Source of the DNA: an uncultured Bacteroidota bacterium
Lineage (GTDB): Bacteria; Bacteroidota; Bacteroidia; Flavobacteriales; Flavobacteriaceae
Direction of reading: 5' to 3'
DNA length: 64,000 bases
NCBI GenBank assembly: GCA_902595555.1
Contig: CACJQM010000002.1
Coordinates: forward strand, 248,001 to 312,000
Shown: one piece after another, positions 23,457 to 26,312 of the stretch
Layout: each line of letters starts with the position of its first letter
Position numbering within the stretch: the stretch's first letter is position 1
The notes under the pieces: model-generated
Told to the model about the DNA's origin: nothing
Databases searched by the model: none
The model's input: the letters and a program-made list of their open reading frames with translations, nothing else
Translations under genes and position numbers: made by a program

Positions 23457-23966
23457 ATGAGTTCAAAATTTCCAGAACAGTCTAAAACTATTCAAACGGA
23501 TATAGTTTTACCAGGTGATACAAACAGTTTAAATAATCTTTTTGGCGGCGAACTTTTGGCTCGTATGGACAAGGTTGCAAGTATTGCTGCAATTAAACAT
23601 TCTGAGCAAATTGTTGTAACTGCATCTATCAATAATGTTGCTTTTGGAGAGCCAGTTCCTAATGGAAGTATTTTAACAATTGAAGCTAAAGTTTCAAGGG
23701 CTTTTAACTCATCAATGGAAGTTTTTATCGACGTTTGGAAACAAAACAAAACAAACAAGGAAAAATTAAAAGTCAATGAGGCTATATATACTTTTGTTGC
23801 AGTAAATAGCAAAGGAAAACCAATTAAGGTACCATCTATTACTCCACAAACGGAATTAGAAAAAAAGCGTTATGAAGCAGCTTTAAGAAGAAGACAATTG
23901 AGTTTAGTTTTAGCCGGTAAGATGAAGCCTAGCGAAGCTACTGAACTTAAAGCAATTTTTGACTGA
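23457..23966 (+). CDS. Acyl-CoA thioesterase, hotdog fold
   Basis: A 169-residue hotdog thioesterase of the YciA/acyl-CoA hydrolase type. The catalytic region NSLNNLFGGELLARMDKVASIAA contains the family Asn/Gly-Gly and Asp residues. VASINNVAFGEPVPNGSIL, read from VTASI, is the central strand. It hydrolyses acyl-CoA to free acid and CoA; chain-length preference cannot be told. Its last eight bases overlap the next gene. Confidence 0.85.
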   Translation: MSSKFPEQSKTIQTDIVLPGDTNSLNNLFGGELLARMDKVASIAAIKHSEQIVVTASINNVAFGEPVPNGSILTIEAKVSRAFNSSMEVFIDVWKQNKTNKEKLKVNEAIYTFVAVNSKGKPIKVPSITPQTELEKKRYEAALRRRQLSLVLAGKMKPSEATELKAIFD

Positions 23967-24879
23967 TTTGAATTTTAGAACTTGTTTAATATTATCGATT
24001 CTTCTATCTCCTTTTTTTGCATTTAATCAGGTTAATTCAAACTATAGTTTAAAAATCCTTGGAGTTGTTCAAGATGGTGGTTTTCCTCACTTAGGTAATA
24101 ATAAAACATGTTGCGAAAATATCCAGCAAAATAAATTTGTAACATCAATTATGTTGATCAATAATGAAAATAATGAATCCTACCTGTTTGACGCTTCACC
24201 TGATATTAATGAACAACTTAACTTTATGGGAGATAGAGTTAAAAAAGATTTAAAGGGTATTTTTCTTACTCATGCTCACATTGGGCACTATACAGGTTTG
24301 ATGTATTTTGGAAGAGAAGCTTTAAACTCCAAATTAGTTAATGTTTATGCTATGCCAAGGATGAAAAATTTTCTTGAAAATAATGGACCGTGGAGTCAGC
24401 TGGTCTCTTTACAAAATATTTCTATTAAAGAAATAAATAATAACTCAAAACTATCGATTGATCCAAATGTTATAATAGAGCCAATTGAAGTTCCACATAG
24501 AGCTGAATTTTCTGAGACGGTTGGGTATAAAATTTATGGCCCAAACAAAACAGCTCTTTTTATCCCTGATATAGACAAATGGTATTTGTGGGAAAAATCA
24601 ATCATTGATGAAATCAAAAAAGTTGATTATGCATTAATTGATGCAACTTTCTTTGATGCTAAGGAGGTAAATTATAGAGATCTTTCTGAAATTCCCCATC
24701 CATTTGTTGTTGAAAGTATGGAACTATTAGATCCCATAAAAGAAGAGGAAAAAAATAAAATATTTTTCATTCATTTAAATCACACAAATCCATTAATTAA
24801 TGAAAAAAGTGAGGAATATAAATTAGTAATTGGTAAAGGTTACAATGTTGCTAAGGAAGGTATGATTTTGAAACTTTAG
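23959..24879 (+). CDS. PqqB-like MBL-fold metallo-hydrolase, exported
   Basis: A 306-residue metallo-beta-lactamase-fold protein starting at TTG (alternative TTG at 23968), with a hydrophobic leader. It resembles PqqB: LGVVQDGGFPHLG, a Cys pair (KTCCENIQ, 51-52), the LFDASPDI strand and the metal motif THAHIGHYTGL (His105, His107, His110). The usual Asp of HxHxDH is Gly here. Further ligands lie in EVPHRAEF and IPDIDKW. No pqqA, C, D or E genes are nearby, so PQQ synthesis is unlikely. The substrate is unknown. Confidence 0.75.
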   Translation: MTDLNFRTCLILSILLSPFFAFNQVNSNYSLKILGVVQDGGFPHLGNNKTCCENIQQNKFVTSIMLINNENNESYLFDASPDINEQLNFMGDRVKKDLKGIFLTHAHIGHYTGLMYFGREALNSKLVNVYAMPRMKNFLENNGPWSQLVSLQNISIKEINNNSKLSIDPNVIIEPIEVPHRAEFSETVGYKIYGPNKTALFIPDIDKWYLWEKSIIDEIKKVDYALIDATFFDAKEVNYRDLSEIPHPFVVESMELLDPIKEEEKNKIFFIHLNHTNPLINEKSEEYKLVIGKGYNVAKEGMILKL

Positions 24880-25067
24880 ACTTCGCAAGTCATGTCCTCT
24901 CCACAACACTGAGGTGATTTAATTTTACCTAAACAGCTTGGGCATTTAGATATTTGAACACTGGTTCCGTCATCTAAAATAAGATGATCATTTTGAAGGG
25001 GAGTGTCGCATTTTCCACAACTAGCATTAACAGACATTCCACATTTTGTGCATTCGTAAGTATACAT
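24876..25067 (-). CDS. Small zinc-ribbon protein
   Basis: A 63-residue Cys-rich protein with nine cysteines, including CTKCG (6, 9), CGKC (17, 20), CPSC (42, 45) and QCCG with a last TC. It looks like two zinc-ribbon knuckles. Very similar short proteins are common in Bacteroidetes, but I know of no demonstrated function. It overlaps the end of the PqqB-like gene by four bases and diverges from the septoil-knot gene. Confidence 0.75.
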   Translation of the reverse strand: MYTYECTKCGMSVNASCGKCDTPLQNDHLILDDGTSVQISKCPSCLGKIKSPQCCGEDMTCEV

Positions 25068-25078
25068 ATTTATGGCAT

Positions 25079-25086
25079 TAAGTTTG
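25079..25086 (+). promoter_or_regulatory. Bacteroidetes -7 element (TAAGTTTG)
   Basis: An exact TAnnTTTG match 20 bases before the ATG of the septoil-knot-like gene at 25107, within the 39-base gap to the divergent zinc-ribbon gene. Confidence 0.45.
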
Positions 25087-25106: not shown

Positions 25107-25436
25107 ATGAAAAATATCATTTTATTTTTTTTGTTACTATCAAACATATCATTTGCACAAAAAATATATTCAACTGATTATAGTTCTCAATCTGACATAA
25201 AAGTGTTTGTTGTAGATTATGAATCTCAGGCAGATTTAAAAGTATTTAAAGTTGACTATAAGTCTCAAGCAAAGGGAAATGAAGGTTTATGGTATTTTGT
25301 AGATTATTCTTCTCAATCAGATAAGATAATTTACTTTGTGGATTATAGCTCACAAAGTGATCTAAAAATTTATTTTGTAAAATATAAATCACAAGCAGGC
25401 TGGAGAAATAATAGTAAGAAAGCCTTACTATATTAA
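25107..25436 (+). CDS. Repeat protein of the 7(1) septoil-knot type (DUF6150-like)
   Basis: A 109-residue protein with a signal peptide (ending ISFAQ) and then six copies of an 11-13-residue unit of the form V-x-Y-x-S-Q-(A/S)-D: TDYSSQSD, VDYESQAD, VDYKSQAK, VDYSSQSD, VDYSSQSD and VKYKSQAG. A GNEGLWYF insert follows the third unit, and the C-terminus is WRNNSKKALLY. This matches the family I recall as DUF6150, now named for its deeply knotted 7(1) topology. No biological role is established that I know of. The export signal puts this copy outside the cytoplasm. It ends immediately before a convergent gene. Confidence 0.75.
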   Translation: MKNIILFFLLLSNISFAQKIYSTDYSSQSDIKVFVVDYESQADLKVFKVDYKSQAKGNEGLWYFVDYSSQSDKIIYFVDYSSQSDLKIYFVKYKSQAGWRNNSKKALLY

Positions 25437-26081
25437 TTAAAATCTTTTTCCTATTGAAAACCCTCCTCTGAGTACAGCTTCAGGTCTATTTGAAAATATT
25501 TCTTGTCCTGTAGATGAATCATTTTCATCTTTATTTAGAAGAAATCTACCAACACCACCAGTTATTTCAAAAGTCCAGCCTTTTTTGTTTACCCATTTTT
25601 GTCCAATGGCTGCACCAGGTGCAATATCAAAAAAATTCTCTTCTTCGATTCTAATATAATCTGAACCAGAGTTATCGCCGAAATTGTAATACTCAACATC
25701 ATGTTTTCCAGAGGAAAATTTAGTAAATATTTCAGCAAAAAATCCAGCACCGCCATAATCTCTTTTATTAAAAAAATAAAAACGATAAAAGGGAGTCAAG
25801 GAGAACTTATCAGTCCAATTTCTAGATGCTGAATCGTTGTCACCTGCATTTATAAAGATGCTTACCCCAAAGGAGGAGTAAGGATCCTTAATTCTTTCAT
25901 AGTTTATATCAAAAGCTGGTAAACTTAGAATATCAATTAAATCCAGTTTTAATTCATTTTGGCCTAATTCTTCAAAGAGTTCAGAGATTTGATTGTCATT
26001 TTTGACAACTTCTACTTGTTGAACTTCTTGTGAATTTATAGAGATACTAAAAAGTAAAATTAATAGAGTTATATATTTCAT
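25437..26081 (-). CDS. DUF3575-like outer-membrane beta-barrel protein
   Basis: A 214-residue exported protein (signal peptide ending SISINSQ). A charged linker to about residue 45 is followed by strands typical of a small eight-stranded outer-membrane barrel. Landmarks are LPAFDINYERI, LTPFYRFYFF, GGAGFFAEIF and WTFEITGGVGRFL, ending in RGGFSIGKRF with a terminal Phe. The layout fits DUF3575-like proteins. Function unknown. It follows a small lipoprotein gene after six bases. Confidence 0.65.
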   Translation of the reverse strand: MKYITLLILLFSISINSQEVQQVEVVKNDNQISELFEELGQNELKLDLIDILSLPAFDINYERIKDPYSSFGVSIFINAGDNDSASRNWTDKFSLTPFYRFYFFNKRDYGGAGFFAEIFTKFSSGKHDVEYYNFGDNSGSDYIRIEEENFFDIAPGAAIGQKWVNKKGWTFEITGGVGRFLLNKDENDSSTGQEIFSNRPEAVLRGGFSIGKRF

Positions 26082-26087
26082 TGGTTA

Positions 26088-26312
26088 TTATTCATTACAA
26101 TATTCTTCTCCAATTACAAAGGAATTATATGTGTCCCTTGTTACTTCTACTTGACCACCTCCTCCAGGGTTCTCGGCATTATTAGTACCCGAAGTTGATG
26201 TTAATGTAAAATAATACACGCCATTCATTTCATATTTATCAACTATAGTCCCACAACTGTATGGGTCACAAGATGCAAAAACAAACAAGATTATTAATAG
26301 AATTTTTTTCAA
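26088..26312 (-). CDS. Small lipoprotein of unknown function
   Basis: A 74-residue lipoprotein starting at TTG (lipobox FVFASC, Cys15). The mature part is short with CDPYSCG near the N-terminus, a Gly-rich NPGGGGQVEV stretch and a closing EEYCNE, so a disulfide is possible. No family recognised. It sits upstream of the DUF3575-like barrel gene in the same operon. Confidence 0.55.
   Translation of the reverse strand: MKKILLIILFVFASCDPYSCGTIVDKYEMNGVYYFTLTSTSGTNNAENPGGGGQVEVTRDTYNSFVIGEEYCNE

Follow-up and report, generated by a model that had tools for sequence, protein, structure and literature searches.

Among the closest described counterparts of the protein examined here are knotted proteins. 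In the part available of Brems et al. (2022; PMC9278004), the 89-residue protein Q9PR55 of Ureaplasma is predicted to form a 7_1 knot and the protein P73136 a 5_1 knot. According to the accessible portions of later reports, the knot of Q9PR55 was confirmed by X-ray (PMC13352647, PMC11223836) and solved as PDB entry 8IWA (PMC13352647). Also known is the Knotted Solenoid fold (3_1), a repeat protein which, in the part available of its description, carries the knot in a solenoid-like body (PMC13123833). Here we analyze a gene of the family DUF6150 (PF19647), located at positions 25,107–25,436 of the plus strand in a 64,000-nucleotide stretch (the window) of the genome of an uncultured member of the Flavobacteriaceae. 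As far as those partial sources go, its product resembles Q9PR55 and P73136 in length and in being a small uncharacterised protein, and by description it can be likened to the Knotted Solenoid fold, as both are repeat proteins. No sequence match to Q9PR55 or P73136 was found, the search being made from the DUF6150 side only.

The family is annotated as one of unknown function, and two new handles on it are the phage genomes in which it is carried and a loop residue that tends to change jointly in six repeats; phage carriage and the coupled loop residue are what is added to DUF6150 here. Our favoured explanation, to which we give a probability of roughly 0.35, is that this small exported protein serves as a stable multivalent binder in the cell envelope, and that phages may use it to alter the surface of their hosts.

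The DUF6150 gene and its six repeats

The gene is an open frame coding for a precursor of 109 amino acids, with a mature form of about 92 residues, while the reverse strand over the same interval, translated in one frame, has many stops. In the Pfam search the protein matched DUF6150 with an E-value of 1.6e-21 and 76.5 bits against a cut-off of 27, and its residues 15–108 were aligned to positions 6–98 of the 98 in the profile, so that nearly the whole profile is covered. The first-pass annotation, made from the letters and the translated open reading frames (ORFs), had proposed at this place an exported protein with six near-identical units, similar to DUF6150 proteins; the frame, the leader and the six heptads were found again on re-reading, and the profile search shows it to be a member. 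Because of the strength of this match, and because relatives occur in 70 genome contigs, the repeat pattern cannot be put down to chance. In all this the window protein is an ordinary member of the family, with no difference seen. The NCBIfam search returned one weak match, far under its cut-off.

Read by eye, the N terminus is a hydrophobic leader of the Sec type that ends in SNISFA/QKIY and lacks a lipobox cysteine, as in substrates of signal peptidase I, which suggests that the protein is exported. In the family alignment, the first mature residue is glutamine in 116 of 123 rows and a gap in the other 7 (the window protein is included twice), and a hydrophobic N-terminal segment, defined by a hydrophobicity threshold, is present in 114 of 122 family ORFs. 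Then follow six heptads of the form Y-x-S-Q-[AS], which start at mature residues 7, 20, 33, 49, 62 and 75. Their spacing of 13/13/16/13/13 corresponds to a period of 13 residues with one insertion of 3 residues (the KGNEGLW region) between repeats 3 and 4. The residues that hardly vary across the family (V, D, L, V, W, F, K, F, V and W) include no evident catalytic set.

In one relative, locus L040 (982–1701, minus strand), the DUF6150 repeats lack a signal peptide; a serine-rich linker comes after them, then a hydrophobic segment and a region that matches SH3_3 just under the cut-off. The 853-amino acid open frame of locus L178 was considered as a fusion, which is unlikely, as the frame ends in a separate DUF6150 unit with its own leader.

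The coupled loop residue and the fold

Labelling the heptad positions a to g, the fourth residue (d) is mostly identical across the six repeats of a protein. Within one protein, the d residues of two repeats agree in 0.916 of the pairs, compared with 0.575 after shuffling that ignores ancestry (116 complete rows, the window protein twice). Of 111 distinct repeat sets, 89 have the same residue at all six d positions, compared with a mean of 16.7 and a maximum of 27 in 1000 such shuffles. Serine is not the majority d residue in 28 sets, and in 22 of these all six are equal. Moreover, among residue pairs at a separation of at least 5, the 15 strongest covariation pairs are the 15 pairs of d residues (113 sequences; effective number, Neff, 56.7). 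On a tree of the 116 rows built with the d columns excluded, in which 61 of 113 inner branches are weak, the d type (Ser, Asn, Tyr or His, with at least five of six alike) switches at least 10 times when 7 mixed rows are left aside and 14 times with them. The simplest reading is that the six d residues would meet in the structure or act together, and their joint change would mark a functional or structural center of the protein. Covariation gave no order of the repeats in the fold, the d signal being all-to-all.

The likeness of the repeats might instead come from recent gene conversion or slippage between units, with no selection on the protein, an explanation that we regard as very improbable. 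It would account for the near-identical repeat DNA of some genes (L114 and L168) and for the serine codon class at d, in which 0.781 of pairs agree where 0.595 would be expected. Across 114 genes, however, equal residues have identical codons about as often as the background of the locus would give at positions a, b, e, f and g, with a slight excess at c and d (observed and background values: e, 0.605 and 0.662; f, 0.338 and 0.331; d, 0.392 and 0.322), and therefore gene conversion is not the main cause of the likeness. In the window gene itself the codons of the six d serines differ (TCT four times, TCA twice), and the other heptad serines are encoded by AGT, AGC, TCT and TCA.

That the DUF6150 protein is knotted has about even odds. 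In the first-pass annotation it was assigned to the 7(1) septoil-knot type, and "septoil knot" is what we take to be a RefSeq product name for the family, confirmed by no search made here. In its most specific form, which falls a little short of an even chance, this explanation takes the mature protein for a genuine septafoil (7_1) knot of the Q9PR55 kind, which would serve as a scaffold extremely resistant to unfolding and proteolysis, with no specific ligand. The mature length of about 92 residues, close to the 89 of Q9PR55, the six units with an insertion after the third, and the all-to-all coupling of the six d residues, which fits a compact interlaced core, speak for such a knot. Against it, 8IWA was not among the matches of two DUF6150 profiles (A2 and A4) to PDB sequences at E-values up to 10, its presence in that collection being unconfirmed, nor was it retrieved by four single-sequence searches, one at E-values up to 1 and three up to 10. 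All the PDB searches with DUF6150 proteins and profiles gave no match or weak unrelated ones only. No paper naming DUF6150 or PF19647 appeared in the literature searched, where "septoil" occurred in one unrelated paper, and the name DUF6150 is absent from the portion of PMC9278004 covered. If the family is knotted, a complex knot would be linked to a selected biological role.

An ordinary unknotted repeat protein, similar to a beta-solenoid or a beta-prism, is a somewhat unlikely alternative; with its regular face it would bind sugar, ice or some other surface that is regular too. The period of 13 residues, the loop residue kept constant across repeats and the leader would all suit it. Lectins and ice-binding proteins typically have such regular, identical loops, which is a further point in its favor. 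The window protein, however, had no Pfam match to any solenoid, lectin or ice-binding family at E-values up to 1.

Viral copies and the proposed role

More interesting as a lead is the carriage of leader-bearing DUF6150 members by large phages. Scans of the IMG/VR collection of 2.9 million detected DUF6150 ORFs on at least 20 distinct contigs, with E-values of at most 2.4e-12 against a profile built from the alignment (A2); as the scans used short patterns, this count is a lower bound. Pfam confirmed the six viral proteins tested (L157, L160, L161, L168, L173 and L175), and the record of L044 matches PF19647 also; the other viral copies rest on the in-house DUF6150 profiles. The terminase family PF03237 was over its cut-off in 4 of the 20 contigs, which are all four of those longer than 100 kb (266, 176, 344 and 348 kb); a contig of 11 kb had a match under the cut-off. 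A prohead protease was found in the 266-kb contig, one of five contigs tested, and the two longest contigs have an identical DUF6150 protein. Contigs other than these four are shorter than 35 kb, and some of them may be bacterial. In L155, the neighbour of the DUF6150 gene is an AAA-ATPase that resembles a restriction gene.

No match was given by tblastn to the window protein and the repeat part of L040 in plasmid or phage records, or to the proteins of L153 and L154 in deposited phages (50,697 phage records); at this sensitivity, therefore, the gene is absent from deposited phages, and the viral copies rest on metagenomic contigs. Neither of the two phage DUF6150 proteins tested had a PHROGs family, and the scan of viral contigs with the repeat part of L040 detected none.

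The phage gene could be an inconsequential passenger picked up from a host by chance, which we consider improbable. Such an origin would agree with the modest number of viral contigs in so large a collection and with the positions of the viral rows, which are scattered over several parts of the tree, its forks being weak, and which suggest repeated transfer. It agrees less well with the conservation, by eye, of the leader and the repeats in the viral copies, among which the near-identical L163–L167 lie just under the hydrophobicity threshold. It also agrees less well with the gene that follows: in 8 of 15 viral loci (five of them near-identical), a same-looking gene of 243–244 amino acids, as judged by eye, comes after the DUF6150 gene, even though the DUF6150 proteins differ. 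This gene is HD-like in L161, where it has two PHROG matches and a further match under the cut-off, and its copy in L153 has no Pfam match; in L173, an ORF of 55 amino acids lies between the two genes. In L154, an outer-membrane-like ORF (DUF3575 just under its cut-off) is located 16 bases downstream.

The HD-like gene begins a phage block in L161 (6477–11053), with matching genes in L153, L163–L167 and L173; of seven downstream L161 genes tested, five had no PHROG match. In L153 (692–790) and L163 (369–461), the leader is preceded by RGNLRAFRAAA, which is common to both, and the mature parts differ.

Returning to the favoured explanation, the DUF6150 protein probably works alone in the cell envelope. 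A stand-alone binder is favoured because the near-invariant residues include no evident catalytic set and because no neighbour family is widely common. A Pfam scan of 128 neighbour proteins found the most frequent family in 5 of them, and in a PADLOC scan of the same set no defence family recurs, the top one, mad2, being present in 4 of 128 (the best 25 families are listed for these scans, which covered 128 of 158 references, the 30 dropped ones being mostly near-duplicate loci). The comparison of gene neighbours that the first-pass annotation had recommended as a check found none common to the sampled lineages. In the mechanism that we infer, the six equal loops would form one coupled surface or core, which would give the protein both great stability and multivalent binding to a ligand in the envelope, such as an outer-membrane protein, peptidoglycan or a glycan. 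With less weight, hosts would use it as a constitutive envelope factor, while tailed phages would, as they infect, make a copy of their own that is placed in the periplasm or on the surface, where it could change or mask the host surface for superinfection exclusion or envelope protection. Such an action on the host surface is proposed because the phage copies appear to be exported, and phage carriage itself suggests a role in infection. A more daring version, which we see as a long shot, has jumbo and other tailed phages carry exported DUF6150 proteins, possibly the most complex protein knots known, to modify the host surface. They would be plugs that resist unfolding and bind an envelope receptor by their six equal loops, and the type of the loop residue would determine the target.

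Several observations weigh against the envelope binder. The ligand, localisation, structure and phenotype of the DUF6150 protein are all putative. Since L040 has no signal peptide, the domain is not solely an envelope domain. The all-to-all coupling at d does not single out contacting repeats and is inflated by shared ancestry, and the d residues are mixed in the phage copies of one lineage (L153 and L161), so that their uniformity is not essential. The excess of shared serine codon class at d could be given by common descent of the repeats or by some conversion. Because the terminase family also matches 6 of 14 control genomes, such a match alone is no proof of a phage. Finally, a DsbD-like gene is next on the same strand in seven loci from at least three genera (cluster 16), so that a partner is possible in that group; DsbD_TM was found in 5 of the 128 neighbour proteins, and the d residue of these loci is serine in some and tyrosine in others.

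Distribution, neighbourhood and promoter-like element

DUF6150 is patchy across the phylum and nearly fixed in the small-genomed genus of the window. The host genome, of 1.4 Mb, has a single match; in the genus, its own genome included, the gene is present in 20 of 23 genomes, and the three without it are 55%, 57% and 74% complete. Matches were found in 17 of 296 genomes of a phylum sample and 48 of 397 of a family sample (the own genome counted in each), in 24 of 60 genomes in the search for relatives, and in 7 of 98 genomes from the phylum of the Cloacimonadota relative L138, whose genome is counted. None of the 14 control genomes had a match. The scan of public genome contigs gave 70 loci with relatives 43%–90% identical over the best segment, with titles mostly of Flavobacteriaceae, Flavobacteriales and Bacteroidetes and a few of Bacteroidales, Chitinophaga and Cloacimonadota. 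One congener genome (G018) has three matches (L003, L025 and L026), two of the tyrosine kind, one of these cut by the contig end, and one of the serine kind.

Purifying selection is strong in the genus. The ratio of nonsynonymous to synonymous rates (dN/dS) of the mature part, calculated with our own script by the Nei-Gojobori method for 14 among the possible pairs of 10 congener sequences, several with saturated dS, was 0.025–0.10 in 13 pairs; the fourteenth, whose dS is the lowest, gave 0.22.

The positions of the gene, its parts and its neighbours are given in Table 1.

Table 1. Features of the DUF6150 gene, its surroundings in the window and the DsbD-like neighbours of related loci
Feature	Position or loci	Strand	Evidence
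PqqB-like gene (metallo-beta-lactamase fold)	23959..24879	+	TIGR02108
Gene for 63-amino acid protein with Cys pairs	24876..25067	-	
TAAGTTTG, candidate -7 element of a Bacteroidota promoter	25079..25086	+	sequence, congener alignment
DUF6150 (PF19647) gene, 109-amino acid precursor	25107..25436	+	translation, Pfam
Leader region MKNIILFFLLLSNISFA, putative cleavage before Q18, no lipobox Cys	25107..25157	+	sequence
Repeat 1, heptad DYSSQSD	25176..25196	+	translation, alignment
Repeat 2, heptad DYESQAD	25215..25235	+	translation, alignment
Repeat 3, heptad DYKSQAK, then insertion with conserved W	25254..25274	+	translation, alignment
Repeat 4, heptad DYSSQSD	25302..25322	+	translation, alignment
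Repeat 5, heptad DYSSQSD	25341..25361	+	translation, alignment
Repeat 6, heptad KYKSQAG, then conserved W	25380..25400	+	translation, alignment
Outer-membrane-barrel-like ORF	25437..26081	-	by eye
Small lipoprotein-like ORF	26088..26312	-	leader then Cys
DsbD-like gene downstream (cluster 16)	L057, L061, L069, L114, L120, L048, L049	same strand	

The gene for the 63-amino acid protein is divergent from the DUF6150 gene. It had been taken for a zinc-ribbon gene that might help in finding the function: a protein with cysteine pairs does adjoin, yet zinc-ribbon models match it below their cut-offs only, and of the 15 genus loci that share this neighbourhood, 11 have another gene family (cluster 5) at its place. 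Because of this replacement, the zinc-ribbon-like neighbour is a poor functional clue. Upstream of it, the PqqB-like protein (105.5 bits, cut-off 245) has a possible leader, and its relatives occur 1–3 places upstream in 15 loci (cluster 1). The outer-membrane-barrel-like ORF is convergent and abuts the stop codon of the DUF6150 gene; it has no Pfam or NCBIfam match, and relatives lie directly downstream in 14 loci (cluster 2). The lipoprotein-like ORF has no Pfam match, and similar ORFs are found two places downstream in genus loci (cluster 0). The PqqB-like, outer-membrane-like and lipoprotein-like genes were considered as a system and are read as chromosomal context, since other sets of related loci keep their own neighbours (e.g., clusters 16, 17 and 26). 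Beyond the genus, neighbours are conserved solely inside such sets; the clearest case, and a possible exception to this reading, is the DsbD-like gene of cluster 16. Of 85 loci, 34 have a same-strand gene no more than 60 bases upstream, and of 87 loci, 20 have one at that distance downstream, some of the loci being near-duplicates.

Promoters of Bacteroidota have the consensus TTTG at -33 and TAnnTTTG at -7. The first-pass annotation had credited the gene with its own -7 promoter, and a TAnnTTTG element is indeed present, with the ATG 20 bases further on; no TTTG was seen by eye at the usual -33 distance, the nearest one upstream ending 31 bases before the -7 element. By itself the motif is not rare, with 66 occurrences in the window, under the shuffled mean of 112.6. 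It lies at most 90 bases upstream in 10 of 19 listed genus sequences, a count that takes in the window, and 18 of 117 family members have it at such a distance; for several of the misses, the start assigned to the ORF is clearly placed too early. GGCA[TC]TAAGTTTG is invariant, with varying flanks, in the window and in 7 congeners that were chosen as carriers of the motif.
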